Of a DNA stretch of 64,000 nt, positions 14,602 through 64,000 are shown piece after piece. A model generated the notes under the pieces. It ran no database searches, was not told the origin of the DNA, and saw only the letters and a list, made by a program, of their open reading frames with translations. The first letter of the stretch is position 1; the number at the start of each line of letters is the position of its first letter. The position numbers were made by a program, and so were the translations under genes. Origin of the DNA: Phytoseiulus persimilis (taxonomy: Eukaryota > Arthropoda > Arachnida > Mesostigmata > Phytoseiidae); NCBI GenBank assembly GCA_037576195.1, contig CM075101.1, positions 21,080,001 to 21,144,000 of the forward strand. Reading direction: 5' to 3'.

Positions 14602-17106
14602 AATATGCCCAAGCCCGTGTACGGCCCGGAAGCTGGAGGCGTGTTCGAACTCGGGCAGTTCAGGATTCTGTCGGTGTCCCCGTCTATTCGATTTGAAGTT
14701 GCTGTATTGGCGGAAATACCGATGAGTTATACAAGACAATGATACAGCTCTGCTCATAGAACAGCCTTCTATGCCAAGAATGAGAAGCGAGTTCTCGAAG
14801 TTACACATCGTCTCGTTGGAGGCTCGCGGACTATCCCGACTGGAAACCGACGATCATCTTGAGAAACGGGCGTCACTGTGTGCCCTGGAATCGAGGACTC
14901 CTCCTCGGGCAAACTCGCTCGTTCGAATCGCACGTCATCGAGTTGAGTAGATCGCTTGCGGATCAATCAGTTTATCGGTGAAAGCGCGGGTAGAGTACCT
15001 TGTTGAGAAATTTCGCCGATCATCCAGGTGGCCTTCGACTATAAAGTCATCATTCAACTGATGAGCCTCATAAAACCGCGTGCTCTCCTTGAGTCTTCAT
15101 CTCCGACTGAAATTCATGAGAATGCAGGAATCTGAACCGCTCGGAAACATTTCGGCTGTCGCAGCGCTGATCACTCTCTATAGTGTGAAGTTCCGGGCCG
15201 AGCTAGTCATCTATGAACCTCGTTCCGGCAGTGTGAAGGACATGAGCGGATTGTTGAACATGAGTTACATGACGATGACCAACGCTACCGAACTGTTCAA
15301 ACATGTTTCGAAGAGATATTTGGCGAAAAGGAAGGTTCTGGTGATGGTTGAGAGCCCCGAGAGTTTACAACTTCACCGAGAGCTTATACACAAATGTTCC
15401 GACTATTTAGGATTGAGTCGGTGGCTCGTACGAGTGGACGGAATGGAAATCGAGAAAATCAGACCGCTGTACCCGAGGTTCTTTCTGTGTGTTACTACTT
15501 TTCTCAGAGGAAACGTCGCAGATGTCCCAGCAGACTTCGTGAACTGTGAGTCCAGGAAAGAAGTCAGCGCGGAGTTCGGGGCAACGGTCGAGGATTTCCA
15601 GCTCGACAACTTCGCGGCCATCAGTACGAGCGATGGAGCTGCGAGGGAAATCGGCAACTATTTAGGTTTTGTGACGAAATTTCTGAATATTTCGTCGTGG
15701 ACCATCGATTTTCTGCCCGGTACGAACTACTTTGGGGAGCTACGCAGAATGTTCAGGGAACGCGAAGCGCTGCTTTCCGTTGAGTTGGTGGCCGTCGATA
15801 GCTGGTGTTTCCCTCATTATCAATTCAACATTCCCCACTCTTTCGGCGCCCATCGCTTTATCTCTTGGCGACAACGTTTCGATAGTTTAGGGAGCGAGGG
15901 TTTGACGGAAGTTTTCGATATATGGGTATGGCTCTGTTTATTCGTTTTAGCTGTCGGGCAAATCCTCCTTTCGTCTCTTTTGTTCGTTCGAGATTTTTCT
16001 TCCGCGGTCGTCTCGGTGTCGTCTTGTTTCCTGGGCCAGCCGTTGAAACTCAACGGAGGCTCAAGAGCTTGGGCGATCAACATCTATTGCCTCCATTTCG
16101 GGACTTTTTTGCTGTGTTTGATTTTCAAGAACAAACTGCTCTCATGCCTGAACATATCCAGTTGGCTCACACTGGATGATACCAGAGATTTACATTACCT
16201 CTCTCAACATAACTTGATCAACCGCGTCTGCATTTCTGTCAACTCTCACGCGAGTCAAATGATCAACGGGAGCATCCACGACCCCGACCTTCTCTACTTC
16301 AGGCAAATAGGAAGTCGGAACCGCGTCACAAATTCGGGGTCCAAAACAGATTGCTTGAACTTCGTGAGACGAAATAGGGAGCACGCCGCATTGGTATACT
16401 TCAACAAAGATACACTTAGTACCACATTCGACCGAACGAATCTTGAGATGGGAAAAAAATGATCGCTCCTGTCATGCTCGGTTTCGTGCATGCCCCGTGG
16501 CTGCCTTCCGAAGACGACTTCCACGTCCTGAACATGCGTCGCTTCGAAACTGGCATCCCTTTCGTGTGCGACTATCCCGGTTTCATGGGCGATCGTTTCC
16601 AGCCTTTCAAACCTCCTCAAGAGGGCCCCAAGGCAATAGCTCTGAAGCATTTGGACATCGCGTTCTTCCCACTGCTCATCGGATGTGTCATCGGCGCAAT
16701 CGCGAGTTTGCAGTCTTTGAAGACGGGAATGAACAAAGGATCCAAGGATTGTTCTCGACGGTGTTTCAAGTCGAGAGGGGGAGCGAAAGCTCAGACACCG
16801 AGAACATCTCCGAATGCTACGGATAATGCATCTCGGCAACTCGGAAATAAAAACGCTTTTCTGTTCGACAAATCGGGCGTCGGTTGTCGACGGCCCGGAA
16901 CGGACCGCAATGAGGGTGCAATGAAATGAACGTTCACAACGATTCACGGTACCATTGAGGGTGTCCACTCTCCCCCGCGCGATCATTGCGGTCTCTCCCG
17001 CAATCAGTCGAATCCGGATGTCCCGAACCGTGATCCTCCGCCAAGCCTGGGCGATGCGATTGAAGAAGCTGGAGCAGGCAACCAGCAGACTCCTCGAAGG
17101 CCCTCC
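14602..17106 (+). repeat. Segmental duplication, unit 2 (IR-bearing)
   Basis: Direct repeat of 5766-8235 with scattered substitutions that become denser in the 3' half of the IR. The duplicated noncoding leader (14602-15115) is almost unchanged. Confidence 0.9.
15116..16929 (+). pseudogene. Divergent ionotropic receptor (IR), copy 2, frameshifted
   Basis: Homologous to the 6280-7920 gene along its whole length, with the same start context. The frame runs open to a TGA at 16460-16462. There, copy 1 has a run of eight A after GG and copy 2 has only seven. That single missing base shifts the frame just before the segment corresponding to IIAPVMLGFVHAPW. The downstream part, including TM3 (about 16650-16720), stays open in the shifted frame. 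The original stop is also lost: TGA in copy 1 corresponds to CGA near 16757, so the frame would run to 16929. Everything up to S2 is preserved (TM1 about 15912-15980, pore and TM2 about 16035-16150). It is either a young pseudogene or an intact gene with a homopolymer sequencing error. The lost stop favours relaxed constraint. Confidence 0.8.
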
Positions 17107-26342: not shown

Positions 26343-26832
26343 GATGCTTCCTGACCGGCATTGCGTAGGATCTTCAGGATATTATGTTCGTCTACATTCA
26401 TATTGAGATCTTTAAGTCTCTTGCATTCCTCATCTATGCTTTGCGCGAGGATCTCCTGGTCGGGTTACCTTGCAATCCAGCCGGTCTGTCTTTCTGGTAT
26501 TTGTTGTTCCTCTCCTACAGCTTCCATCTCCAGATACAGACGGTCGCTGAGCGATTCGAATTCATCATTGACTGTCCTTCCTGAGATCCCGGACCTGATT
26601 CTTGCTGCAGTCATGTCGATGAAGGTATTCCTGTGTGTGTGTGTGGAATGTGGGGGTCCTGTTGCCGTTGAGTATATACAATCCGTGTCTTGCCAGTAGC
26701 TCCTCCAGGGCATTTTCCTGGTTGTGTTGCGAGCACTTCCCCAGGCCGTTGATGCCGCATTGAAGTCTCCCGCGACGATAAACTGTCCGCTCGTTCCTTC
26801 AACGACGTTTTCCAGTGCTTCGATATATTCAA
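26343..26832 (-). pseudogene. Non-LTR retrotransposon endonuclease domain fragment
   Basis: The minus-strand frame contains EYIEALENVVEG and then FIVAGDFNAASTAWGS (about 26780-26735), the AGDFNA motif of apurinic-like (EEP family) endonucleases. It continues to TFIDMTAARIRSGISG and ESLSDRLYLEME (about 26630-26540). In active enzymes the last motif is SDHRYI, where His is catalytic; here it is Arg. The 5' part of the element beyond 26832 is replaced by the Helitron end. With 24780-25480 it forms one minus-strand retroelement relic. Confidence 0.85.
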
Positions 26833-27024
26833 CCAGCCGGCCTTCGGGCGACCGGAGTCGGCCGCGCTCCGCGCGGTTGGTTTCACGCGTGTTTGTACGG
26901 GTACATTTTTTCCCCTTCATTAAGTTAGTTTCGTTTTGATTAGGTGCACATTGTGCATTTCCAGCATGGTGGTTCGCTTGTGTTTCTCTATCTGAATTTT
27001 AATTCGTGAATGAAGAGAGTGATA

Positions 27025-28790
27025 TCAGTTACGTAACGAAAACGGTTTATTCAGATGACGTTCCGCAGTACGACGTTTTTTAGAATGTTGTTCGGCGCTT
27101 TCATCTTCAGCTGGTTGGGATGGCGAACCCTTGAAAATGCCACGTACAGTTGACCATGGCTTGAAAACTTGGCTTTCTAAAAACAGCCCGACTTTTGAGA
27201 AGGTTTGCCCTTGACTTTTGTTTATGGTCAATCGCGAAAGCTAGCCGCACTGGGAATTGTCGTCGCTTTTAAACGGAATGGGATCCGCGAGTCGCGATAG
27301 TTGTCGATCCGAGGTATGATGACGAACTCGCCCGCCTCACTCCAGCGATGAATGGCACCCAAGTGTATATCGACCTAAAGATTCGATTTTTCAGCCTTGT
27401 TCCGTTGCAAAGACCATGAGTGACATCCAGATTGCGTAACAACATAACAACGGCGCCCTTTCTTTAGGTTCAACTCATGAGGAGGCATACCCGTGGGTGT
27501 TAGACTGTTGAGGTATTCTGTTGGGAAGAAAGATTTCTCTCCTTGGTTGTTTTCAACAATTACATCGATGCTTTTGTAGATCTGTTCCTCAGAGGCGTGA
27601 TTTTCAGAGAGCCGGTCGAGTATCCTTTGATTCAAATTCGTTGGTGCTAAAATCGCTTTTTCGGCCAATTCATCAAAGTTCCCGGGCTGTATTACAGATC
27701 CGTAAATTTCATCTATGATATCATTTTGGCACATCAGTTCCAAAGGAACGGTCACGTGGCCCTGGGCATTCCCGGATTCCCCGTTTCCAATATGAAGAAG
27801 GAACTCCTGCCATTATGAGTCACTACCTCTTGAACGAATATTCTCAGTCAGTTCGAAAGTTTCGAAATCATACCACAGTCCCGATCGTGGAACGCAAGCT
27901 TCGAGGGTATCCGCTGCCGAACCTCGTTCAACGATCGGCAGTGTTTGGCGGAGATCTCCTCCTACGACAACAATGAGACCACCGAAAGGAAGGTCATTTT
28001 GGAAAATGTCTCGGAGGAGCGTAATCAACTGCTTCGAACTCTACTTTAGGCACCATGGAAATTTCGTCCCAAATGATGATGTCCAACTCCGCCAACTTTT
28101 TGGCTTCTTTCTGTTGGCGGCTCATTGTTGATGTGCGGTTATTGTCGTTGACGTTCAATTTGAACATTGAGCTCACGGTGCGACCGTCCGGTAACAGGTT
28201 TGCAGCTATTCCGGTCCAGGCAACGCACAGTACGCGACGCCGTTCACCTACCGCGAGGTTATATATTGTGTTGTATAAATAGGTCTTTCCGGATCCACCG
28301 GGACCGTCGATGAAGAAGTAGCTCATTCTGGATTCTCTCAGAGCTCCGAGGATCTCGTCAGCTGCCTTTCTCTGATTTGGGTTCAAGTTCGCGTACATGA
28401 GAGCGCCTTCCGAAGAGTCAGTTGTTGTGAGCTGTGGGATCTCGCATTGCGGAATTCGCACTATGTTCTGGAATTGAACGCCGAGAGTCGCCAATATTTC
28501 AGAAATGCCGTGATACGCTAAAGCAGACGAAACTTCGGCTGAAAAGCCACGACGGAAGAAATCTTCAGCCAAAACGTCAGAAAAATCATTCCAGAGAGTT
28601 TGAATATCGCAAACTTCACAAAATGCGATGAGACATGCGAAGAAATCTCGCAGAACTTTCGGACTTTGGAAAGACGACGCTTCTTCGAGGCTGCTTCGGA
28701 AACAGGTGTCATCATTGAGAAGCCTTGCAGCATCCATGAACGTGGGGTAATATGTTCGAACGACTTGGGACTCTTGACGTTCAACAGAAG
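27025..28790 (-). pseudogene. Helitron PIF1-like helicase region, frame-broken
   Basis: Superfamily 1 DNA helicase motifs appear in correct order on the minus strand. Walker A is GPGGSGKT (about 28300), with the preceding LNPNQRKAADEIL. Walker B is DIIIWDEISM (about 28080-28050). Then GGDLRQTLPIVERG (about 27960-27915), TENIRS (about 27840), a middle segment with LAPTNLNQRILDRL (about 27650), and MTINKSQGQTFSKVGL (about 27225-27180), the motif V/VI region. In the last part the VAFSR box is not in frame. At least three frame changes (near 28740, 28020-27990 and 27800-27370) and a deletion of about 70 bp are evident. In an active element this domain unwinds DNA during rolling-circle transposition. 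Confidence 0.9.
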
Positions 28791-30850
28791 TATGCGAAGA
28801 GCATACCGTTCCGTGTCTCTAGGGGAAACTGTGTACATTCGCCCGATAATACCTTTAGTGGCTCGTTTCCTGCGGGTCCAACCTGTTCTTGGCTTGAAGA
28901 CGAAATATTCTGGGATTTGGTAGTGGAAGAGGTTTCTTTGGTCCCAGATACCGAGGGTTTGCCTGTTCCACGTGGAGTTCAACTCGAAGAAAGCCGTCAG
29001 GGTGGTGAACTTGTTCGTTGCACTTTCGAGTGCAGATTGCTCTTCGCCGTCATGGGAAATGATGTTCTGTTGGTTGGGCAAGTGTATGGCGAGTCTCAGA
29101 ACAGTGTGAGATCTATCTTGGAGCTCGAGTCCGAAAATACGATGCAAAGCTTCTGGAGCACAAACCTGACGCGCATTCAAATGTTCTTTTTATCTCATCA
29201 CAGTCGTCTTCAGTTTAGTTGATTTCGATGGATGCACGGTCCCAGCCTTTGTAAACGTACTTGTAGAGGTATTTCACGGAAGAAATCATGCCACAGATTT
29301 CAACGTTGATGTAACATCCATACTTAAGCAGGAAGTACGGATTATAAGGCACAACCCATTCATCACTATAGGCAACGTGTCCGATTTGCGCTGAAAATCG
29401 CGTTCTTCTGCGCAGATGTGGGTAGCCGTCGTTGGCTATAGATGTTTCACATCGTAACTCCTTCGGAAACTTCTTCGAGCATCGGCCATCTTTCATACAT
29501 GGAGCTTCAGGGTTGGATACTCCACAGTTCCGATGAATCATGAAAGCTTTAACAGCCTCGTGCAAACGTGGCTCCGCGATCGGGTCTGGTATCTCCCCAC
29601 AGCAAACACGATCAACCAATTCAGCGGCGCGAGGCTTGAATTGCTCTTTTAATATGAGCAATGTGTGGCAGTGTGGTAAACCACGCTTCTGAAATTCCAC
29701 CACCATGACGTATGCTTCGATGTCACCGAACACTTTCTTCTGTAATAAGTCGTTGAAAATTTCTTTCAGATTGTATTTGAAGAATTTCGATACCAAATCC
29801 GGGCGATTTTCAGCGGCCTGTCCAGGATACAGATTTCCTCGTATTTCTCTCCATTTGGGATTGCAAGTTATTGTCATGAATATGTCTGGTTTCCCGAAAC
29901 GGGCAACAATGGCCATCGCGTCGTGATAGCTCTGTTGCATGTGCCGTGGGGATCCAATGAAAGTGGATGGCAACACTATACGACGATCTGCAGGACCTGA
30001 ATTGTCGTCGCATTCGACCAAGAAATCCTGAAGTTTTTGATACGATTCTGCACGTATTTGAGCTTGGTTCTGTCGATAGTAATTCAATCTATTTTGCTCG
30101 ATTTTCACGGAAGAATCAACAGCGAATTGCTGAAATAGCTTCCCAGCGTGCTGGATGGGATTGAAAGATTCTCGGACAGCGAACAAATAGGAGTAAAATT
30201 GCTTTTGAGTAATTCTTTTCCCCCGGTTGTCTCGCAGAGAAGGTTCCCAACTATCTTCTCCTGTGGGGAAAAGTAGAGGGTATGTCAACGGATCACAACG
30301 TCTGTCCAGGTGCGAGATATTTACCAGCGTACCTCCTCTTTCATGAATGCAAATGGATCGTGTAGGTGGAAAGTCACCATCGTCTCCGACGTATACAACT
30401 GCAACTTCGTTTGTTGTTGGCAGGTCGTATAGTTTTCCTTGGGTTCCTCTCGGACGAACATCATCAAAAACCATGGTTATATTCAGGGGGGGGCGGTTTT
30501 CTAGTTGTGCAGCCATCATCTCGGCTTTTTCGAGTTCCGCCATCATCCTGTAGGATCGCGCGTAGGGGTTCACCGCAGCGATGAGCGCACCCAAGTTTTC
30601 GAGTAGCCTTGGGTTGCATTATATGTTCTGTGGAAGTTGTAACCTTTGAGCCGCCGCTTCTGCTGTATCCAAGATGTAAATCTGCCCGAATTGTCTGTTT
30701 TCTTCATTGGCAGGGTGCAGTGGCCCGATGTTATGGTATATCTGCCCATGTTTACGAAAGGTGTACGGTCCCCTTCCACGGGGTTTGATGATTTGCGCGC
30801 CCATGGAAGCCATCGCGAGTGAGGAGTTGAAACTCCGATCAGATCATGGA
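28791..30850 (-). pseudogene. Helitron Rep (HUH endonuclease) region, frame-broken
   Basis: The longest piece is a 459-codon minus-strand frame (29215-30594). It shows the Helitron-like N domain (DPLTYPLLFPTGEDSW, about residues 101-116), the IFMTITCNPKW segment (238-248), and the HUH metal-binding motif as GLPHCHTLLIL (305-315; two His around a Cys). Near the end is KYLYKYVYKG, with the paired catalytic tyrosines used for strand nicking. Upstream, 30615-30815 contains MASMGAQIIKPRGRGPYTF and GQIYHNIGPLHP in another frame. Downstream, after a TAA at about 29215, 28790-29180 continues as NARQVCAPEALHRIFGLEL and HTVLRLAIHLPNQQ. The catalytic residues are all visible, but the gene is split by one stop and several frameshifts. 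Confidence 0.92.
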
Positions 30851-48800: not shown

Positions 48801-49233
48801 CTTCCCGAGGGCTCGCGTGTTTCTTGGCTCCCTGAGAGAACTCTTTCGGAGACCAGCGAACGACGCTGTACAGCGTATCGCTGTTTGTGGGAGCTGTGAA
48901 CGCTAGACCTAGGTATTCCGATGCGACCCTCGTACCCGGAGTGATCCTCGATGTCCGCGACGCCAATAATCCGTGATTTCCTTTCCAGGCAGGCCTTCGC
49001 TTCGCGAATCGCGATGCTCCCACCTCAGGAATCAGCCCAACGTCGTTTTATTCGCCTCTCGATTCAAACCCTGCGTACGAGCTGAGGCTGGCTCGAGCTG
49101 AAGACCAATCGTGCAGCGGCGGCGGTCTTTGGTGGAAGTCCCACTGGTGTTATTCCGATCGAAAGCTCTCGACATCCGTTGACCATTCATCATTCTATCA
49201 ACTACCTGTGCCTCGGTGGTCGTTGAGATCACG
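45879..49233. other. No coding exon recognised upstream of the GABA receptor start
   Basis: Contains overlapping frames (largest minus 46633-47289, 218 codons, and plus 47452-47901, 149 codons) without motifs, and an 11-base G run at 47997-48007. It is likely the promoter region or first intron of the GABA receptor gene. Confidence 0.4.
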
Positions 49234-49370
49234 ATGCCGATAGTAGGTACACAGTGGAGCTGTTGCCTCTACTCGTGTATACTCCTCGGATTTCTGCTTC
49301 TGTCCGCCGCAGTACAGCAAATTGAAGCCCATAAACCCAAGGACAGCAAACTTTACAAATTGAGGCCAGG
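49234..49370 (+). CDS. GABA receptor subunit, coding exon 1 (signal peptide)
   Basis: The ATG at 49234 opens a frame of 45 codons plus two bases, ending at 49370 before a consensus donor GTGAGT. Residues 10-27 form a hydrophobic core (CCLYSCILLGFLLLSAA), a clear signal peptide. A polar, basic mature start follows (EAHKPKDSKLYKLRP). The two leftover bases GG join the first base G of the next exon (56598) to make Gly, so the reading frame continues as RPG-QTERGQNITHIL. Phase agreement, signal peptide and donor strength together support this as the first coding exon, although the intervening intron is 7.2 kb. The exon is too short to stand out as an isolated frame. A further exon in between is not excluded. 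Confidence 0.82.
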
Positions 49371-52300
49371 GTGAGTCAACATGCCCTAGATATTGATTTG
49401 AGTTTTGACGTCGATCCTCGTCGGCGACTCGTTTGCTCGAAGTGTTGCCGAGCCGAAAAAGTTCGAGCATGCACACAACACGTTGAATCGTTGATGATGT
49501 CGAAGTTGCGCGATGGGCGCCAGACGATGAGAAACAAGGGGTGAGCTCCCGGGAATGGTTATGAGCGACCAGGACGAGACCAGGGTCGGGCTTTCGGAAG
49601 AACAACACGAGACAATTAACAGATGAATGAATATAGTGATCCGTCGTCCGGAGTTCCGGATCTCGTCGTCAGGGTCAGGGCACCGCGGGATTTATGTTCT
49701 TCGCGTGTGTGTTTCGGTCGCGTCCGGGCGGACGGCGCGTCCCTTCGACCGAGGTTCGGAAGAGCGGGCCGTGAGCGCTCGCTGGAACAGGACGAGCGAA
49801 AAAAAAAGATGGCGGGAAGATTGTGGGGGTAAGTGATCGCGCGTTTCCTGTCCTCTGCTCTGGGACACAGCAGCTATTTCCTTTTTGCGGCTGAGAGTTG
49901 AACGTTAAAAAATGTTCCCATTGCCGTTCTCCTCGACTGACTTCTCTCCCACAGGAGCAGCATCGGGACTAGCAGCACCTACTTCTATCGCTGTTTCAGC
50001 TTTTCGCTCCGAGAGTTTGTCTCACTGTTGAACGAGCAGGCCGTTGCACGTTGATTTGTAAGGATACTTTCTCGGGACATCTGAGTCATCCACCCCGCTG
50101 ATTTGTCTCGCGACGCTTCCTCCCATCGCTTCAAGTCTTTGTCGTCGTCCTTGTACCTTCTCTCAACGTCGAATTCCAGCCAACATCGCGATAAAGAGCA
50201 ACGGATCCCTGGTCCTGGAGACCGATTGGAGCGGATGCCGTCATGCAGGACGCGAACGGTGTCCGGAGTGACTCCTGACAGGAAAAATAGAAATCCTCGG
50301 CTTCAGGGGATTCCGGGAACGGCTTCCTTGCCACGGAAGCGCGCGCATCAGTACTTGCACGCATCAGGCCGATGTGTATGTTAACGACGTGCCATCGGCC
50401 TGTGGCATATTCGGGGAATATCGAGAGACAGTTTCCTGAGGATGTTTCTCGTTTCGGTTTCCTTCTGCATGGGGTCGTTGGCGCGGCCTCGCAAAAACGG
50501 AAGACATCCTGAGAGCAAAAGAATTCTCGCAATCGAGAGCACACACTTGCGAGCGCACGCGCACACAACAATGAAGAACTTCGGACCGCTGCATTGTTGA
50601 CATCTCGCCGAGCTGGAGATAGGAACGGCTTCCATCCTCAGAACGATGCCTCTTGAACGACCGGGGAAGGAACTGAAAAAGCGAGCGACCGCGCGGCGGC
50701 TTCGTGACCTACTTCCAAATGTTTTGAGTGAGCGACTTCGGTCTGATCCCAGTCCTTAGTCGCAATTGCAGGCCTCGAGCCTTTGTTCCTCCCTTTTTTC
50801 TCTCTCTCCCTCTTCCACGCACTCTCTCAACCGGTTTCTCCCGCTATCTTGAGCTCTTCCGGAGCAACGTCATCCTTTGAAAGCTCCCTCCGATCGCAGG
50901 GGAGCAGGAGCGTCAGTATTTCGATATAAGCTCCTGTCCCAAAATTGCGGAGGCTGTTGTCATCCGGCAACGGGATTGTCAATAAATATTTGATCCGGCA
51001 GTTGGACTTCTCCACGCTCTTCGGAGAGCACTGCACGTGGGTGGAGCTCGGATCTCCACCAACGATTCCCTCTATCGCCGCTCCCGAAGACTGATCTCGA
51101 GGGAAGTCGGAGATGGGCGTCAGCGATCATCCGGAACGTATTTTCGCATCATGCTGCACATCGATCGCCATTCTTTATCCGAGCCCGTTTCATTGGAAAA
51201 CGGCTCAAATAAAGAGGTCTGCTCGCGTCTAAACGTTCTATCCACGAAAGCATTTCGAAGTTTTGAGCACTAACTCGTGGAGCGTGTTGTTCGCGGCTTC
51301 GCGAGGTTCCGAACGCGCCACAGTCGACGTGCCTGTGTGATTAGTGGACATTTCCAGAACAAGCGGCGAGAACGACAAAATGGAAGACAGCCTCCGACAA
51401 AGAGAGGCGGTGGCGAGTGAGTGATCTCTTTCAAAAGATGGCTGGCTGGTGGGCTCTCTCGACTTGCCATCGGAGAGCTTTCCGCCTGGCTAAGCGACTC
51501 AAGTTGGGCTCTTCGTTTGCTTCTGCTTCGAGTCGAGAGGAATCCCGGCCGACTGTTTCGTTGCTTGCTTGGCTGGGTAGATAGACCGAGACCGGGAGTC
51601 CCTGGCCCGGTCCCACCCGATTCCTACCGTACTCCGCGTCTCTGGTCTCCAACTCCGAGAACGGCTCGCCTCAGGTCGCGTTCGGAAATCGCGTTTTCGG
51701 TAACTGCTATGTCGGCAGCGCTTCATCCCACCACCGCGGAGCTCGTGGTCTTCTCGTTCTAGGAGGATCCGAACAGTTCGATCTTGGCTTTCCCGAGATC
51801 ATCGGATGCCGCGTGGGATTTTCATCCCCTTCAGACATTCGTGACATTGTCTCACACCAAGCCTGTGTCGCCGTCAAGTTCATCACTCTCTGAGCTTTCT
51901 GCTGCCTACTACTTGAAAAAACTCCGGGCTGGCAGCTCGCGCGGCGTTGATTCACTTCAAGTTGCTCCCTATGTCGCGGTCGTCGCTGCACTTTTGTTCG
52001 TCTCCTCGTTTCTCTTTCGCACAGAAACTTCCATTCAGTCAAGCTCCGTATTGCTCTGCGGAGTTTCACCACTGAGCCCTCGCAGATGGTTTTTTCTCTG
52101 TTCCTGTCTCCTTCCTCGTTCCCGAGAGCTTCTCTCAATCGCCCCATTTCGCCCACGAGGACTTCTTCCAACTCTTTAAGTATCGCCTTATCTTCCACGT
52201 TCTCCTCGCATCTTGTTAGAGCTCCTCTATAACGAGAGTCTCGTCGATGGAATTTTTACAGCAGCTGCACGGAATGATGAGAGATATCAGGTTCCCTCCT

Positions 52301-55300
52301 TAATTGAAAAGAACACATGACAACGAGGTTCATGCATCGAGATCAAACTTCCCGACGCTTCCTGTGAGCATCAGGGAAGCAGGCTCTATCTCAACTTGCT
52401 TTGTAGAAAAAGCTCAAGCTTGACATCGTGCCACGCAAGAAGGCCGTCAGAACGGCAGGGAAATTCACCTCAAGCCTTCCGTCCGTGCCGGAACCCTCAA
52501 TTCTTGATCTGCTGAGCCCCGGTAGCGCGGTCTCCATCTCTCGAGATGATTACCGGAGATGGTTCGCTCATGACCCATTCATCAATCACTATCCATCAAT
52601 TCGTGGATATAGTAACAGAATGATAATGTTCGATGACCGCCAGTGCTGGAGATCCAATCCACCCGTGACGACCCGGAATTTTAGTCTCGAATCGATACAG
52701 AATGATACGACATATATCGACGATGGAAGATTCTGAGCGATGGACTCATATTCCGCATAATTTATTCCGTGTAATAAGACACTTCAATTTGCCTCGCCGC
52801 TCCCGTTGCTCGGAGATAAGCCAGACGAATCAGGTCATGCTCTTCACTACCTTCTCGCTCTCTCTAGCCACTTCAACGCCACGTCGGAGGCCTCGTAGGC
52901 TTTCGCGGCTTATGGAGGTGCAGGAAAGTTCTCTCCTTCCATCGACAGAGGAGAAGAAAATAACTTCCCTCCACTTCCATCTCATCTTCAGAAAGATCGT
53001 GGCGGCGCTTATAATTCCATCGTTGTTCAAAATGGGGAAGGATTCGAATGGTGCATCTCAGCCATTCTTCAACATTGTCCGTGTCACACTCCTCGAATCC
53101 CTCATGTCCGCGGAGTTGAAATAATCGGGGTTGGACTCCAAAAGGTTTAAATAATCGGGGTTGAAATAATCGAGGTTGTAATGTGTTTTAATATTCGCTG
53201 GTCGGTTCACGAAGCTAAAGAAAAATCTCGGTTCCTCTCGGGTTGCGTTCGGACGCGGTTTCCGTTCCGATTGTTTCCACTGATTGGCGAGCCACATCGT
53301 GCCCGATGGGTGTTTGTTGGCGTGCAAGAGAGCTGCATAAGAGAATGCTTGCGGCTTTGAGGACAGCAACCAACGCTGGCGTCTCCCTCTACTGCGTCTG
53401 CCCTCTTCCATCTTCCCTCCTCTGGACTGTTCGTCGGTGTCCTTCATTCCCCGTCTCGTCTGCTTGGAATTCTCTCTGAGAAGTAAGCTCGCCCTGTCTC
53501 CGCCATATTGCATGCCAATCAACGATTGTTTCCCAATGGTCTTCGCTGAGTAGCCAATCAGCCGTTTAGATTCCTCCTCTTCGTTCTCCACGCGGTGCTC
53601 CCCCTCCTCCGGATCGCTTCTCTCTATTTCCCTTAGCGGTTGTTGCAAGGACACTTTGTGGAACGATCGTTCACTTGGTCGTCGCTCGCTCGCTCGCTGA
53701 CGGGACTGCCTTCGTCTCCGTTCCTCGTTCTGCTTCTGTCCGCCCGTTGGTTACTTGGTTGGGATGACCCTCGGAGGGATATTAGGCCCGGAAAAAATCG
53801 GAGAGGAGGTCACAAATCCTTCAGTGTCATCCGATGGCGCGGGCCTGTCGTTCTCACCCCGCGCGCGGTCCTTTAGCTCAAATGAAGCCGAAAGTACTGA
53901 GAACCGCGGCCAAAACCTCTGAGCCCGAGGAGAAGGCCAACTCGAGCCGAGTGCGGACAATAAATTTCGGAAGAACGAGGCGTTGGGGCCCGAAGCCAGC
54001 GGCTTACAGAGCGGAATTCCCTTGCGCGGAACTCGGTCCGGCTGACTGAAATCAAGAATGCCATAAGTCCAATTGCCCTCCCGCAAACTGGGACTCCGGG
54101 CTCATTAGATCGATAGGAGCGGATCGGCGGGCGCACGCAGAGAGAGCAGAACAAAGCTGGACGCTCAAAACCGCGATATCGGAATCGCCTCGGCCTCGAT
54201 TGCATGGCCGTGACATGCTTGGAGGCGCCAGAACCCGCATCCGTCGTCTGGTGGGGAGAGTGCCGGGAACAGCGACAACGGATACAGCAGCACAACGTGG
54301 AGAAAAATGCCAGTGCCGCTGCTGTTCTCCCTATCCGCAGGCATGAGGGTTTCTCATTCGGTGACTCGTCGGGCGCGGCTTCTCCCTCCGCCGGGAGCGT
54401 GAGGCTCAAGCCGGGTGCTGGACGAATGAAGCTGCCGGCAGTGAGTCTCACAAGCAGTACATCTGTGGGAGATCGCACGTCTCCCTTCTAACGATCCCTG
54501 GCGAACCATGACCTCATTAGGATTGTGCCTGAGGAGTGGATCTCCCGTCTCTTCGGCGTCATCCTTCTTTCCACGGGGGTCTGATGAAGTCCGCAGACAA
54601 AGTAAATAGGGAAGACATCGCACCGCCAGTCGTAATTAAACCCCAACGAGCGCGATTGAAAGCACCAGCAATCCTCTGACGACAATACACACGTTGCAAT
54701 GAGAAGCGGTCGTTTGAGCAGACCGCTCAGGGCATACGAGTCAATTCGCGTGGCGCGGAGTCGTTCGTTTGAGCTGCTTGCAAAAAGTTCATTCAACGAA
54801 TCGACTGCTCCGCGGCTCGCCGACCAACTACTGGTGAGCTCGAGTTTGGTTGGCCGACTGTTTGTTCACTCCCAACTACGCCTTGGCAATCAAAACGCGG
54901 CTCGGGCGAGTCTGCAGACGACTCGTTGCGAGTCCCGGGAGTCAGTAGACTAGAGAGCTGGAGAACCTCTTTCGATCCATTCATGTACCGTTTCATGTAA
55001 GTTTTGCGACTGTACCGAAGTAGCGTCTGGTCTCACAACGGCTATCAGGGAGCGACCAGGGAGCGGAGGTCCTCGTTATCAGATGCAGCCAGAGAACGCG
55101 TGCGTCTCCGCCAGCACCACAGCCGCAAAAAGTACGGCTGATAACAGTAGCGTATAAAAGACGGCGTCCAGTTATAATCTCTGGTTGGTGTCCATGATGA
55201 GTGGCGAAGTCTCCAAGAACGCTCTCCGCAGATCACGTTAGCCTATTCACTCAGAGTTTCGTTCCTGCAAATTGAACTGACTCATCAGTTCCGAATCGCC

Positions 55301-56597
55301 GATGAGCAGCGCAGCGTCCATGCATCTTCAGCGTAAATTAACTTTCTGAACACGGTGTTGTTTTCTCTGACTCGCGCAGTCCACTGCTATATCTCAAGAA
55401 CCGGTAATGAAGGTTCCACGATCGAACGAATTCTATGCTCGACTTCCGGAGCGGAAGTGAAGGATTTCCGAATTTTTCCGAGACTTTCGCCTCGCCGGCT
55501 CCGTTTCCTCGCTCCCCCCCCCCTCCCCGCGCCTACGTCTGAGCAGGGAGGAAAGATTGGCCGAACTTGAATATGCCTTTTTTTCTATACAGGCCCAGCA
55601 TACGATGATGAGATGGAGAATAGATTCGAGAATTTAAATTTCCTTCCAAGAATGACCGGCTCAACCACAATTACTGCAGCCGTGCGGTCATTACTTGGAC
55701 AGAGTTATGCATGGACTGGGTTTTGTGATCCGGAAGCCGCGGCAGACCGGAACAAAAACACAGAGAAGTGCACGCGATCCTTCGAGAGGGGATGTTGAAT
55801 GGGGTAGAAAAGTTTTCTTGGGTGGGAGAGGCTGCCGATCGTGGAGGAGGGGGGGGGGCGATGAAGAACGCATCGAAGAATAGACAAGGCCGGAAGGAAC
55901 GCGCGGCTGAGTTCGAAGAGCGAGGTCCGGTTCCCTCAACCCGGAAAGTCGCTCGCAGGATCGGAAGTTTTGTCCAAGAACAACTCAACAATAAGAGAGG
56001 AGGACGATCGGACTTGGGAACAGCTGGCGTTAGGGTTTCCGTTCATATCGTGGCTCGAGGCTCCGAGTAATAATAGGAGCAAGCACAAATCGAGCTCTGG
56101 GGAAACTTAGAGCAGCAGGTTCAGCCGCCGGCTGGTAAACGGGATTCCCACTGTCCTCGACCTCCCTCTCCGTTGTCGTTGTCATCGACGTCGCCATTGG
56201 TTCAGCCCTTTTCAGATCGTCTTCGGACCGAGCAAACCGATCACGCAGCAATAAACGCAATTGGTTCTAACCCGAGAATCCGAGAACGACGGCCAAGCGA
56301 TTTACGAGAGGTCGACGTGCATAGGAACGACTCGCTGACGACGATTTCTTCGAACGATTTCCGAAACAGCACTTCGTTTTTTGAAAGGAATACGCTCGTC
56401 GGATGCTCGGCCCGATCGTCCATCCATTAGATGATCGCTCACACACGCGTTTCTTTATGAATCATTGCATGGTGACTCGGGAATCGGCACTCGTGAATCT
56501 CGGGAGAAAGCTCACAGTGCAGAACCGTCTGATTTCTTCGAATCAATGACATCATGGCCAGCTCGGAATCTCATGGTACCATGGTTTTCATTTGCAG
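49371..56597 (+). other. GABA receptor intron 1 (7.2 kb)
   Basis: Bounded by GTGAGT at 49371 and TTTCATTTGCAG ending at 56597. I recognise no nested gene. Many short frames on both strands lack motifs. Near 53121-53180 three imperfect copies of AATAATCGGGGTTG occur. Segments at 53.6-53.7 kb have CGCTCGCTCGCTCG. A purine/pyrimidine-biased stretch with CCCCCCCCCTCCCCGCGCC lies at about 55515. Confidence 0.6.
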
Positions 56598-56686
56598 GCA
56601 AACGGAGCGCGGTCAGAATATCACGCACATACTCAACTCGTTTTTTACGAAAGGCTACGACAAGCGAGTCAGACCAAACTATGGAG
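56598..56686 (+). CDS. GABA receptor subunit, exon 2
   Basis: An 89-base exon with acceptor TTTGCAG before it and donor GTAAGA after it. It encodes QTERGQNITHILNSFF and TKGYDKRVRPNYGG. YDKRVRPNYGG is a signature of the start of the extracellular domain in RDL-like GABA receptor subunits. NIT is an N-glycosylation site that corresponds to the NIS site in that family. The exon ends after the first base of the second Gly codon, completed by GT at 61113. The exon boundary falls at the same codon as in insect Rdl genes. Confidence 0.93.
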
Positions 56687-59600
56687 GTAAGACGAGACCG
56701 AGATTCCTCGCAGTCCTTATTTTTCTGACGAGAAACCACTTTCCGGCTCGACGTCAGCAGGAGAACGGTTCCTTGCTGAGGGCAACCACGGCTCTTACCC
56801 GTGTCCTCTGGAGGAAGAATATCCGAAGTCCTCGAAGAAATCAAAACCTCCCTCCTCGTAGTCATGGAATCTTGTCGAACACCGGATTTGACGGGACGCA
56901 GAGGCGATCGCCTCACACGTAGTCGAGCGAAGAGTGCGAGAGAAACAGAGAGTTTTCGCTGAAGATGGCGATCCCTCATCTCATCCATTTGCGCTCACAG
57001 ACTCGACTCGCGAGGATTAAGAGAGTGAGAGAGAGCCACTACGAATACCGTTCACGCTTATTCATTCCCGCCACGACGGAATTGAAAGAGCCATCATTGG
57101 CGAGCCTCAAGGCTGTAGAAGTCGATTTCGCCCGGTCCCCATGTTGCCTAATTCATCCTACTCCCCCGAGAACAGAACCTGTTCCTTGCTCTGTGGCATC
57201 TCATGACCAGGCTTGGCAGCTGCATTGCTGCGAAACTTCTCTCGGGAGCACACCCGCCGCCTTTGAGTCGGTCAGAAACTCGCCAAGTACCATGTAATGA
57301 CTTGTGGTCCGGCAAACTGCCAGCTAGCGGAATAGCGGCCGTGATTTCCGTTCATCGGCGCGCATCGAGTGAACCGGCCTGCCAGCGGCGAGGTGAGGCT
57401 GACTCAGGTAGTTCGGAAATCCGCGAAACTTCCAAAAGCTGTCGAATTCAATCCGGTCACCCTGGGCTGATCGAAGAAAGCTGCATTCCATCGCAAAGTG
57501 CGCCACCTGGTGGGATTCCGAACATTGCACCCAGGACGAACTCTGCCGTTATCCGAAAAGGCCTTAACGGGGCCTGAGCTTTCCAATGTTTTTCAAACCC
57601 AGCTTCCGTTGGGATTGTTTATTATCGGAGCATTGCAGGATCGCCGCCACTTCAGAGCCGCGTGCCTGACTGGAGCGATACGTCCTATGGACCTTGGTTC
57701 CAGTCCGCCCTGAAAATTCCCGCTTCGCAGGCGAGCATTCATTGAGAATCAGCAGGCGGCTCGAAGAATCTCAAAGAGAGAAGCTTCAGTCTCCGCAGCT
57801 GTCTTCAAGCTTCTTGTTGTGGCTCCTCGCTCCCATCAAGAGCCTGACTCAAACTTATACAGCATCGACTCATATGAAGCACACATCGGCTTCCGGGAGC
57901 TTCTCCGTTCCTATTCTGGATTTTCTCTCTCGAACCGGTATGGGAATCGGGTAGAGAATCAGGAGCACAACACGAGGCCCCAGCTGAAGGAACTGCTCCC
58001 CAGATCCATCGAATCAGCTGTGCTGTTGAATTTGATCATTGCAGAGGCCTGTCGCTGAGGCCGGAAGGAACAGCGCTTGATATAATCGAAAAATAACATC
58101 ACCCAAGTTCAAGTTCGATCGGGCTCTCGAGCGAAGCGAGGCACAGCCTTAGGAATGAAGAGTGTCGGCAGCGTGATATTTTTGAAGAGCCTCATGGGTA
58201 AAGGGAAGGCCCTCGAACTCCTAAATCTTGCCAGCGAGGAACCGAGGCAGCTTTTGATGTTCAGTGCCTGGAGTAGCCTCCACATCCACAGGAACCCTTT
58301 GGACCGACCGCTGAATAGCCCAGAACCACTTCAGACACTGTGCTGCTTTCCAAAATACGATTCCAATGTGGGCGAACGATGATTTTGTGCAATATTCTCC
58401 GAATAGATATTCAGCTCAGGTTGACGATGAGCTTTTTTCATTCTGAACGTTTGCTTTATCATATACGTACATAGTTCTTCAATGGCATGGCTCGAGCTCT
58501 TGAATGCCCGGAACTCTCATCGGAGGAGCCCACGTGCAGTTTTGAGCATGCGTGGTTTGAATCTGTGCAGAGCGTGTTCGAGGCTCTGAAGAAGTTCGGA
58601 AACGATTCAGTGCTCTCGCGACTGCTTCCTTTTTGGAGCAGTAGTTCCTGTCAGGGTACAAGCTCGCCACCGGCAGCTCGTAATAGCCTTGCCTGTTTGC
58701 CCCAATGCCCGGCTCGCGCTTTCCGTGGGAGCGTCGCTGGTCACCATTGAAATCGTATCTTCGGAAAGGGCTTCCGGCCCGACAAGCTCTCAGTCGAGTG
58801 AGCTTCTGGTCGGATGACTTTCCGGACCGGAGGCTGTTTTCAGCGTGACCTAGTCCGAGAATTTCGTCAGTGGGTCGGATATCGAATTGAATCGAAACGA
58901 GTTTATTACGAACTGCGCAAAGGAACCCACGTTGCCATCTCCGGTTCTCTCCTTCTTGTCCGTGCTTACGCTTCTTCCGAGCTTGTCGAAGGGGCCTGAT
59001 AGGCTATCGTGGCGCCGAACGAATCCAATGCGTGGTACAGCCGTACGCGAAATAGAGCGCTGTATGTTCGGCTCTCGCGTATCTCCCACTCATAAACTAT
59101 ACCGAGTTACGCGGCAACAGCTGCCTGTTTTGCTGCAGGGTCTGTTGCATACGTTCATACATATAACTAATAGCTGTTGGGGGAAGCGGGCAGGTGGAGA
59201 GCCGACAGGCAGGAGCCCGGGAACGCTGACTCACGCGAGCACGCACCGGAATTTCGTTTCCCGAGGGAAGATAGACAGATAGGGGGCTTGGAAGAAAACG
59301 TAGTGGGAACAACGCGCAAGATGTATCATCATCGCAATCATCAGCGACCCCGGCGGGAGCGACATTGCACACAAAAGAACTCGAAGCTCTATTGTGTTGA
59401 AAATGTTTTGCAACTTTTGCGATGCAGCGGCCGTCAGCTCCATCGGAGGCGCTGGCTGAATGGCTGTTACGGCCTTCCCAGTCCGCGCGATACGCAGCGA
59501 CGTCCGTTCGCCTGGTCGACTGCCAGAGTGCTCCAGTTTTCCTCAGCCGGTACTTTAGAAAGAACTCAACAGTTGACTGGATTGGAGTCGAGTCAGGCCA

Positions 59601-61112
59601 CGCTAGGCCCAGCCGAGTCGATCTTGTTTGCTTCGTATATTACGCGTCGATTCAATAATCGATAGCTGCTTCCAGCCTGTAGCGGATGGATGGTACACTA
59701 TAGAAAGTATGAAACGGTTTCTCGATCAACGAACTTTAGCGCGGGTCGGCCGATCAGCGGAGCCGCCGACCAAGCGGCCAGCCCACGGGCTCAGCGGAAA
59801 AAGTGACTGAGAGAAGAAGAGCAGATAACGCGTCGAAATCGACGTCCAACGCCGAGACGGAGCTCGAACGCGGAACTCTGTTGGCCTGAGTTTAATACGG
59901 AGCTTTGGAAATTGGCGAAATCGCCCTCCTTCGCCTTCAGACGATGTCTCGAACAATGCGTTCCTGGTGATCCAGATGCCTGCGCGCAGCCCAGGAGCTC
60001 ACGAGAGTTCTTAAGGCCAGCTGCTTTCTCGAAAGTCCCAGCGGACCTTGGAACGTTATAATTTTCCCCAGGAGTTTTCTATGAGTTCCCTGCTGTGCTT
60101 TCCCTGTGCCCTGACCGTCGCTTGTCTCCATCTGCAGCCTGTTTTCCTGGAAGTCTGCCCGCCTGCTCGCTTTTCGGTTGTTCACTCGCTCTCTTCCTCC
60201 TGGTTTCCCGAGCCGGAACAGTGATGGCTGGCCTGTCGAACGACTGGCTCTCTGAGGCGCTCCGGAGCCTAGATTAGGGAAGGACTGCTCGACTGAGGTA
60301 TTCGCTCGCCCATGGTCAGAACGTGATCCAGTACCATCGTCCGTCGACTGATAATTATTGGTCAAGACGAACTCATGCCTCTAGCAGATTCCTCCGGCCC
60401 GCCAGCATCTTTGGATATTATGCATGGAGTTTTCCATGAGATCCGTTTAATGATGCTGTATCTAACGAGACTTTCCAGAGAAACTCGACTCCTTGTCATT
60501 GGAGAGAACCTCCACATAATCTCAATGAATCTTATCCAGGACCTTGCTCGCTCGGTGAAGGCAAACAACCAATGTTCTGCATATCCTTGGGCGATCTGTG
60601 AATCATCATCGGGGTTTTCCAGGGTACCTCGCTTTCCGTGGTCCCCGATTCCCGAGGCTCCCTTATGAGGGAAAGCGAAGTGTGGCACGCACTCAGTTTG
60701 CTGTCGGAATCTGATTTGTAACTCGGGGTTTGACCAGTGGTCGCGACACTTGGATGCTGCGAATATTCGATTCCTCTCAAATCGCTGGGCCATCGTGGCC
60801 ATACCATGCGGGAATATACGAATTTCTCTTTGAATCGATCCGCAGCTACGATTTTTCTTGAAGAACCTCTCTGCGGAAATCCGCGCTCCTTCTCGTTGCT
60901 AAATGTCACACCTGCGCAAGCTGTACGATCGTTCATACGCGACTCATTGGTCACAGCCTGATCCTCATTCGTCACGACCAATCGTACCATCTCGTCTCAA
61001 TTTCGAACGCGAGTAGAACACGGTCGGAGCGAAGGCGCTCACGATGCATAGTTTCGAGGCTTCCCTCCGCGCCGCGAAGAACTTCTCTTGAAGCACTCGT
61101 CTTTCGTTTCAG
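56687..61112 (+). other. GABA receptor intron 2 (4.4 kb)
   Basis: Bounded by GTAAGA at 56687 and CTTTCGTTTCAG ending 61112. No nested gene or repeat element with clear boundaries was seen. Open frames up to 162 codons (plus 59177-59665) carry no recognisable motif. Confidence 0.6.
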
Positions 61113-61180
61113 GTCCCCCAGTAAAAGTAGGCGTCAGCATGCAGATTGTCAGTATCAGTGCCGTCTCCGAAGTTCAAATG
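61113..61180 (+). CDS. GABA receptor subunit, exon 3 (68 bp)
   Basis: Acceptor TTTCAG and donor GTAGGT bracket 68 bases encoding PPVKVGVSMQIVSISAVSEV followed by QM. This is the conserved beta strand after the YGG segment in anion-selective Cys-loop receptors. The 68-base length and boundaries equal those of exon 3 of insect Rdl. In insects that exon has mutually exclusive alternatives. I searched the adjacent introns by eye and saw only this version. Confidence 0.95.
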
Positions 61181-61262
61181 GTAGGTGCTTCCAACTATTA
61201 ACGCCGCTACTTTAACAGTAATGACTTCAACCTTCCTCGGGCGCTGCTGGAACAGTTTCCAC

Positions 61263-62325
61263 GGTTAGGGTCCGACAAGCCGAAAATTCGAACCCGAAAG
61301 GCATGAAGCCGAAAAATCGAGCCCGGAAATTCGAGCCCGAAAAGCATGAAGCCGGAAACCTCCTCTCCCAACGGCGGAGTGTTCGGGACCGGTTTGGCGG
61401 GATGGGATTTCTGTATCGTCTCGTCGATCTGTACCTTTGTGAGACTCATTCGGAACGACTGGGAGACGTTCTCGGATGAAATGATGACAACGGCTCAGTA
61501 TTACTCCAGAGCACGGCGAAACGATGGAAGAACCTTTTTCCCGATTCGCTCTCTGATATGGAACATTTCGCACGAGCGCTTTCCATCAGCGTGTCCATTT
61601 ACGGGAATGGGTCATTCTTCTAGGCACGCAAAGCGCCCCTGCGCGCTCATCCTGAGTTTGAGTGTTGTCCTTGGTCAAGGGCGCCTCCATCTCATCATCG
61701 TCAAATCATTGACGCCATAGGAACTGATCGTCCGTTTAATAGGAACGTATGACTCGTCTGCCGGAGTGCGGGCGATCTTTGTAGATGCTCTAGGGACTGA
61801 TCGTACTACTGCGAGTGGAGCTGACAAACGCGGATTCCGGTTCAGTCGAGTTCATCTGAGCCTTCAACAGGCAGCGGATGTACTGTGACTGCGGAAGAGG
61901 GTTTCCATGCCGGTTCTCCCTTTTCGGTGGGAAAGAACAAGGTGTTGTAACAGCGTATTCTGCGAATAGTACTCGAGCTGGAGGTGGAGATTCCTCTTCA
62001 GCTCTAGCGAGTTGACCTCGGAAACTTCAAGATTCTCGTTCAGCAGATTGCTTCCTGTAGCAGCTACACCTTTGGTCAGTTCGAACTAGGGACCGTAGAT
62101 GCGGAACAGCGAGGACGTAAGCGAGGCAGAAGAAGTAGGTAGGCTGAGCATAACGAAGGTGCAATTCCTCCCCGCTAAGCCAGTATCGACCGCTCCGCTG
62201 TTGGGACAGGAGGTTTTCGGCTTCACGCTCTTCAACTTCATGCCTTTCGGCTTCATGCTTTTCGGGCTCGATTTTTCGGCTTCATGCATTTCTGGCTCGA
62301 TTTTTCGGCATCCAGGGTATACACC
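61263..62325. mobile_element. 1063-bp MITE, copy 2 (same family as 18046-18794)
   Basis: An exact 8-bp duplication GTTTCCAC flanks it (61255-61262 and 62326-62333). The left arm contains AATCGAGCCCG, AAAAGCATGAAGCCG, CCTCCTCTCCCAACGGCGG and TCGTCGATCTGTACCTTTGT, shared with the 18-kb copy. The right arm is an inverted version with GGCTTCATGCTTTTCGGG. Interior segments AAGGTGTTGTAACAGCG and GTTGACCTCGGAAACTTCAA are also shared. A ~300-bp middle segment (about 61450-61910) differs from the shorter copy. The ends are GGTTAGGGTCC and CCAGGGTATACACC. No transposase. Confidence 0.88.
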
Positions 62326-63359
62326 GTTTCCACCGTTACGGCATCCATCGTCGATGTGGTTGCCGTGCAAGTGTGACCCCTGAGCAAACTGTGCCGAAGT
62401 TGACTGCCTGTCGGTTGTTGTGACGGTGGTCGTCGGAGCTCCTGCGAAAGCCCGACACTGTGTCGGTGATTGCTCGCTCGCCTGTCCAGGCTGAGACCGC
62501 CGGACAGACAGACTGGCTGACTGACTGACTGATGGTTGGGAAGGGAACGGAAGCGGTTCTCATGCTCACTTCCCATTCCGGTGTGGCTGAGTTATGTTGT
62601 TGCTCTCGCCGACTCCCTCGTTCGCTCGGTCAGTGTCGACGTAGCCGCCGTAACTGAGGGCTCTTTGGAGTCCAGACAAGAGACAGGTTGGACGAATGCT
62701 GTCCGCTTCCGAGCGTACATGACGCCAAATTGCAGACGGTCTACTCCGTGGGGTGCATACGAAATCGGCGTGCCTTCCGTCTGGGGGACACCTAGACGGT
62801 CGGAGCGAACTCAGCGGAATGCGACGTCCCGGCCCAACACTATTACTCCCGAAGCGATCGATTCGATCACTGCGTGTCCCTTAAAGTTCCTTCTACTCCG
62901 TTACACTGACATGCTCCTCTTTCGAGCTGTCGGTCACGGAGCTCCTGACGTGTTCTTCATAGACGCGAGCTGGAGAACGTGCGTGAGCTCATCTCGAGTG
63001 AACCGCTGGCCAGGCATTGCTGTGCCGCGACGGCCATCACTCCCTGCAAACAACAGGACCAGCAGCCGTCGGGGGCTAGAGCGGTGGCTGCCAATCGAGG
63101 GACGAAAGACAAAGGGAAGAAGGCCACCATGAAGCAAGAAAGCGACTCGGTCGTCTCGCCTCCCCGCGATGAGATGATGATGCTGCTGGCAATGGTCTGA
63201 ACAACCCTGATCCGGAAACGAGGACCATAGCCTGCAGGACCCCGTACAGTTTGTGTTATGAAGGGCGGCAATCAAGATATGCGTGTGAAGCTCCGGATGG
63301 GTGGCTGGTTCCTCAGTTGATTTCTGGCTTCGTTGCTCCGTCCGCCCGACCGTCTGCTC

Positions 63360-63383
63360 ATCCATCCATCCATCCATCCATCC
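63360..63383 (+). repeat. (ATCC)6 microsatellite
   Basis: Six uninterrupted ATCC units about 120 bases before the acceptor of GABA receptor exon 4. Confidence 0.97.
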
Positions 63384-63506
63384 CCGTTCCGGTTTCCAGA
63401 GTGCATGCTCAAATGAGGTATCAAACGGACAAGGTCGTCCGACGCGTCGCTGAAAAACCGGTCCTCTGTCCAGCTCGATCATGTGGTTGTTCGCTTCTCG
63501 TTTCAG

Positions 63507-63733
63507 GATTTCACCTCAGATTTTTACTTCCGACAGTCGTGGAGAGACGAAAGACTGTCTTTCCCTCGAACAAATGAACTCAGCCAAATGACGGTAGGCG
63601 CAGAAGTGGCCGGGAAGATCTGGGTGCCAGATACGTTCTTCGCCAACGAGAAAACCGCATATTTCCACATCGCAACGACCCCAAACACTTTCCTGAGAAT
63701 CGGATCAGACGGCGACGTTTATCGAAGTATTAG
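63507..63733 (+). CDS. GABA receptor subunit, exon 4 (ligand-binding core)
   Basis: A 227-base exon between acceptor TTTCAG and donor GTGAGT. It follows directly on exon 3 (SEVQM then DFTSDFYFRQSWRDERL) and includes the loop D segment DFYFRQ, with the Phe and Arg that line the GABA site. Loop A follows as IWVPDTFFANEK, then YFHIATTPNTFLRI and RSIR, the start of loop E. In canonical RDL the loop A region reads FFVNEK; here it is FFANEK. The MTVGAEVAGK segment also differs, which suggests a non-RDL branch (GRD-like or an arachnid-specific subunit). The protein would form part of a pentameric chloride channel in the neuronal plasma membrane. Confidence 0.97.
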
Positions 63734-63982
63734 GTGAGTGCGAGGTCCGGTTCGACGGAGCCCTCCGATCGGCGAGAACAAACGAAGCTCCATGGAGCTC
63801 GAGGGTTTCGCATGGTTCCGCTGCGAGGGAGAGTCCCGTCGAAATAAATTCGCTGCTGACGCTCGGATGTGTGTGAGGGGTTTGTGAGGAGTCGACGCTC
63901 CGAGAAACGGCGTCGCCGGCTGTCTAATCAGTGGACTTTCCAGAATGCTCCATTACTCACAGTGACCCACGATCTCTTTCAG
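63734..63982 (+). other. GABA receptor intron 4 (249 bp)
   Basis: GTGAGT at 63734 and TCTCTTTCAG ending 63982. Short, and it splits an Arg codon (AG then G). Confidence 0.95.
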
Positions 63983-64000
63983 GTTAACCGTCACAGCCAG
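63983..64000 (+). CDS. GABA receptor subunit, exon 5 (partial, runs off the window)
   Basis: The first 18 bases complete Arg and encode LTVTA plus a partial codon, continuing RSIR-LTVTAS of the beta strand before the Cys-loop. The Cys-loop, the four transmembrane segments and the rest of the gene lie outside the window. Through this point the joined coding sequence is 539 bases (about 180 residues). Confidence 0.92.

Follow-up and report, generated by a model that had tools for sequence, protein, structure and literature searches.

An RDL-type GABA receptor subunit gene with a methionine at pore position 6', with three RDL paralogues found elsewhere in the genome of Phytoseiulus persimilis

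The window, that is, the whole stretch of 64,000 nucleotides that was analysed, corresponds to contig C1, bases 21080001-21144000, of an assembly of 181 Mb and 127 contigs. At its 3' end lie five exons, which almost certainly form the 5' half of a gene for a subunit of the GABA-gated chloride channel RDL (Table 1). Four RDL paralogues were found in this genome, and the one in the window is called copy A here. The continuation of the gene was read from 39.5 kb downstream of the window with an overlap of 500 bases, and exons 6-10 were located there, at most 6.4 kb past the window end. Other features of the window are given in the same table. The two closely similar open frames on the forward strand had no Pfam match at E 0.001, and it is our impression only that they may be divergent receptor genes, perhaps of the ionotropic-receptor type. 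An RNA-family scan at gathering threshold and a tRNA scan found none in the window.

Table 1. Exons of copy A, other features of the window and further receptor loci (positions refer to the window unless a contig is named)
Feature	Position	Strand	Length	Content
Exon 1	49234..49370	+	137 nt	Start codon (ATG), predicted signal peptide; end phase 2
Exon 2	56598..56686	+	89 nt	QTERGQNITHILNSFFTKGYDKRVRPNYG; ligand-binding domain begins
Exon 3	61113..61180	+	68 nt	GPPVKVGVSMQIVSISAVSEVQM
Exon 4	63507..63733	+	227 nt	Loops D and A; WVPDTFFANEK
Exon 5	63983..64000 in window, to window-equivalent 64065	+	83 nt, 18 inside	RLTVTAS (loop E), Cys-loop
Exon 6	beyond window		242 nt	M1
Exon 7	beyond window		162 nt	M2 and first part of M3
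Exon 8	beyond window		129 nt	End of M3
Exon 9	beyond window		324 nt	Variable M3-M4 loop
Exon 10	beyond window; gene end at window-equivalent 70355 (G000:C1:21150355)		273 nt	M4 and stop
Open frames	6244-7920 and 15080-16462	+	558 and 460 residues	Closely similar to each other
Repetitive open frames	about 21.8-24.7 kb and 33.4-35.6 kb	both		Long frames with QIGLGITPPELESNG-like units
LINE-like fragment	26468-26920	-		Endonuclease-reverse transcriptase, PF14529, 1.2e-9
Helitron pieces	27997-30594	-		Helitron_like_N 1e-60 and PIF1 helicase 4e-27, in adjoining open frames
Copy B (L014)	C2:44.71 Mb			89% identity to copy A, core
Copy C (L013)	C2:21.37 Mb			85% identity to copy A (260 columns), core
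Copy D (L015)	C4:27.80 Mb			82% identity to copy A, core
L016	G000:C3:33549501-33559500			GRD/8916-group-like

The coordinates, splice sites and phases given for the five exons in the sequence-only reading of this DNA proved exact. Exons 1-5 have GT donors and AG acceptors throughout, end in phases 2, 1, 0, 2 and 1 and keep the frame open, the final S of RLTVTAS being completed by the first base past the window. The peptide of exons 2-5 (128 residues), when compared with a set of solved structures, matched the RDL chain 9she_A with E = 1.9e-48, which excludes chance for these exons. The full prediction comprises 10 exons and 577 residues with no stop or frame break, all nine introns being GT-AG, and it contains the Pfam domains Neur_chan_LBD (5.9e-53) and Neur_chan_memb (4.9e-44) and a Cys-loop with 13 residues between the cysteines, CPMDLRYFPMDRQSC. 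The claim that a genuine GABA-type receptor subunit gene lies here is thus upheld by the match to the RDL chain, by both domains and by the intact open frame. Since four copies were found, one could be redundant and copy A a decaying pseudogene of the RDL family; we consider this very improbable in view of the ten uninterrupted exons, the nine regular introns and the intact cysteines and ligand loops. Exons 9 and 10 are less certain than the others, as they are placed by splice sites and reading frame; the donor of exon 9 is weak (ATG/gtgcgt), and the frame survives skipping of this exon. In Drosophila, alternative copies of RDL exons are found within the gene. A relaxed search of 73.5 kb for exons 2, 3, 4, 6 and 7 of copy A recovered these five known exons and no second copy of any of them, the six other matches having E 0.14 or worse.

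Exon 1, which had been put forward as a cryptic signal-peptide exon, is without distant homology of its own, and we scanned for open frames having an ATG, a hydrophobic core and a phase-2 donor. On the forward strand between window positions 36000 and 56590 (20.6 kb) the sole candidate was exon 1 itself, with a best 10-residue hydropathy of 2.76; an in-frame stop lies upstream at 49180, with 17 codons between the stop and the ATG. Three weaker candidates (hydropathy 2.43, 2.32 and 2.15) turned up on the other strand of this stretch; chance can thus produce such frames, and the scan alone is not proof of the exon. The stronger argument is provided by paralogue B, where the same scan over 3.2 kb gave one candidate, ending in phase 2 as ...NNGLRP/G and followed by QTQRGQNITHIL. 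In copy A the junction reads ...YKLRP/G and is followed by QTERGQNITHIL, and both copies join as LRPG/QTxRGQNITHIL. For copy D no candidate was seen in the 3.8 kb scanned. That the true first coding exon lies elsewhere and the frame at 49234-49370 is a chance one, as the three opposite-strand frames and the 7.2 kb of intron 1 would allow, appears improbable to us, because the frame is the only one on the coding strand, scores above all three controls and has in paralogue B a counterpart with the same LRP/G end, phase and continuation. The proposed signal-peptide exon is therefore likely, and well supported by the like-designed exon of paralogue B.

To place copy A among the receptor genes of the genome, a first genome-wide search was made, which gave 77 ligand-domain and 49 membrane-domain matches, counted by exon, and 20 further loci of 10 kb each were modelled with a purpose-written spliced aligner. 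In a self-test on copy A the aligner recovered exons 4-10, less the stop codon, and it also produced spurious upstream exons when the sequence given to it contained none; in the other locus models the outer exons are therefore untrustworthy. Three of the 20 modelled loci are RDL copies (B, C and D), which together with copy A makes four found. When the genome was searched with the M1-M3 part, the top six rows were all exons of the A-D loci, and the next locus had 56% identity. Exons 2-5 are equal in length in copies A and B (89, 68, 227 and 83 nt), and exon 2 of copy B is 93% identical to that of copy A. On the other hand, copy B lacks intron 6 and has a fused exon of 404 nt, equal to the 242 and 162 nt of copy A; the automatic model of copy D has exons 2 and 3 fused and exon 6 split into 122 and 120 nt. 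From these models it appears that introns have moved among the RDL copies.

The sequence-only reading had called the gene non-canonical and GRD-like, and had itself asked for a phylogeny. We built a tree of 20 rows, consisting of 14 loci (3 RDL and 11 others), the window gene and five references, L018, L022, L028, L029, L031 and L032 being left out as poor or distant models; a 17-row tree was obtained by removing the long-branched L020, L025 and L030. The four copies grouped with the RDL reference in a clade supported at 100/100 in the 17-row tree (91/100 in the 20-row tree, with the three long branches kept), on the basis of a single RDL reference, a copy C row shortened by its missing first exons, and no named arthropod GRD, LCCH3 or HisCl rows. 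Copy A thus clusters with RDL, apart from the LCCH3/beta, GRD/alpha, GluCl and glycine receptor groups, and this full support inside RDL, the very outcome that the sequence-only reading had named as refuting its non-canonical placement, refuted that placement on the rows used. Within the clade, A and B are sisters (100/99), and the four copies are held together with only 83/88. Against solved structures, the best match of copy A was 9she chain A, which we take to be insect RDL (E = 6.5e-176), followed by human beta-3 (5.3e-101).

Three loci, L016, L021 and L024, are presumably members of the GRD/CG8916/HoCas group, as judged from the tree, and L017 was called LCCH3-like from its place in the tree. 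A grouping of copy A with the three GRD-like loci and human alpha-1 was rejected in the AU test (p 1.3e-58), which places it outside the GRD/CG8916/HoCas group as represented by these loci, and so was its grouping with L017 and human beta-3 (p 9.1e-6), which places it outside LCCH3 as represented by L017. Moving A and B together to the three GRD-like loci was likewise rejected (p 3.0e-14), and a placement of copy A with the RDL reference alone was not (p 0.10). GRD, 8916 and HoCas are described as separate arthropod clades, HoCas including a member from Galendromus occidentalis (PMC11275251).

A GABA subunit outside RDL, GRD-like or specific to arachnids, had been suggested because the protein reads FFANEK and RLTVTAS where canonical RDL, and likewise the reference chain used here, has FFVNEK and RLTITAS. 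Both motifs are present as stated, but they are no sign of a separate subunit. All four RDL copies found carry FFANEK and RLTVTA, and these are therefore features of the lineage; FFANEK is also seen in human glycine receptor alpha-3, and the three GRD-like loci differ at that site. Moreover, copy A is 73% identical to 9she_A over 305 columns, as against 44% to L021, 43.5% to L024, 39.5% to L016 and 49% to L017. Combined with the clade support and the rejected GRD-like placement, this leaves a position outside RDL extremely improbable, while the acarine flavour noted for the subunit is supported. Similarly, the 68 bases of exon 3, which had been likened to insect Rdl, are correct in length but not diagnostic, as 68-base segments are also present in the automatic models of the GRD-group loci L016 and L021. 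Copy A is, in short, an ordinary RDL gene, correctly read and misfiled as non-canonical.

Furthermore, we compared the functional residues of copy A with those of the RDL chain. In the residue table FYFRQ, RSIRLT, ESFGYT and TGNYSR, which we take to be the GABA-contact loops D, E, B and C, are as in the RDL chain, and the PAR motif before M2 (ATPARVALGV), which goes with anion selectivity, matches as well. Against these shared loops, motif and core identity stand the differences of copy A from 9she_A, which are FFANEK, RLTVTAS, an alanine for threonine at the end of M3, and H, M, S and Q at positions -7', 6', 20' and 21', where the reference has N, T, A and A; position 2' of copy A is alanine. 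Copy B has 2'S with 6'M, a V in loop B and an I in loop F; in copies C and D, 2'A goes together with 6'T. A methionine at M2 6' is found in L016 too (GRVAVGSMTVLT), where it is apparently independent of the RDL copies. In M3, the glycine G3', which has been named in connection with fluralaner and broflanilide (PMC10337980), is apparently kept in copy A; the position was identified from an alignment with beta-3, where it is M.

This pore has a precedent in Varroa destructor. The RDL clone VDK00020745-3167 of Price and Lummis agrees with copy A in -7'H, 6'M, 20'S and 21'Q, and the account of the clone reports no departure at 2' (PMC4261083). The sequence YVKSIDVY after M2, which in the clone comes from the primer, is present in copy A and not in copy B (IDVF); the account of the clone covers a product of 140 bp (PMC4261083), and the likeness seen here concerns that stretch. 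The published forward primer differs from copy A at 5 of 26 bases, with the same peptide encoded, so the two are not from the same species. For the three Varroa primers (26, 26 and 24 nt) the mismatches were 5, 4 and 7 in copy A, 6, 5 and 6 in B, 6, 4 and 7 in C (the third away from exon 7) and 7, 6 and 6 in D; these counts fail to separate the four copies, and orthology to the Varroa clone therefore rests on the residues. Vd-RDL1, which is characterized by 2'S, 6'M, V in loop B and I in loop F, shares 6'M and the alanine at the M3 end with copy A, while its 2'S and its changes in loops B and F are found in paralogue B and not in copy A (PMC9146934). Of the four RDL genes of Varroa, three are reported to form homomers (PMC9146934). 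As in ticks and G. occidentalis, where GABA-1 (RDL) exists in several forms differing at a pore position, three GABA-1 copies of the latter varying at 2', this genome holds several such forms; the tick variants, as in Ixodes, arose through exon triplication in one gene, whereas here four separate loci are involved (PMC9219234). Repeated duplications of Rdl in insects are accompanied by changes of the pore at 2' and, in the scale insects, at 6' too (PMC10482695). The residue agreement with Varroa and the number of RDL copies would by themselves suggest a parasitiform mite.

Changing 6' from threonine to methionine in fly RDL abolished the block by picrotoxin at up to 100 uM, lowered the GABA EC50 from 5.9 to 1.0 uM and altered modulation by thymol (PMC4261083). 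Vd-RDL1 was hardly blocked by fipronil at 30 uM, and picrotoxin at 100 uM blocked it by 20% (PMC9146934). Vd-RDL1, with its 6'M, is less sensitive to GABA, whereas the T6'M fly RDL is more sensitive (PMC9146934, PMC4261083), and the authors of the Vd-RDL1 study hold that residues outside M2 also matter (PMC9146934). A homomeric channel with 2'A and 6'M would be expected, by analogy with the T6'M change made in fly RDL by others, to be insensitive to picrotoxin-type blockers. We infer that copy A is transcribed and assembled, and its action may be pictured as follows: the signal peptide of exon 1 would direct the subunit to the membrane, where pentamers would form from copy A alone or with other RDL copies; GABA would bind through the conserved loops A-F and chloride would then pass through the PAR-type pore, in which 6'M together with 2'A would resist picrotoxin-type blockers. 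A more specific and rather doubtful proposal makes copy A, perhaps orthologous to Varroa RDL4, a regulatory subunit of a 2'A/6'M class. It would be inactive alone, enter pentamers together with the 2'A/6'T copies and tune how sensitive these are to plant terpenoids and to insecticides that block the channel. If that were true, the genome would keep a standing mixture of two blocker-sensitive and two blocker-insensitive RDL genes.

Cyclodienes, fipronil, isoxazolines and meta-diamides all have RDL as a target (PMC4261083, PMC10337980). As the 6'M pore was already known from Varroa, and multiple GABA-1 forms from ticks and a predatory mite, copy A extends a known pattern; if two of its four RDL copies naturally have a 6'M pore, this would influence the range of blockers that the animal tolerates.
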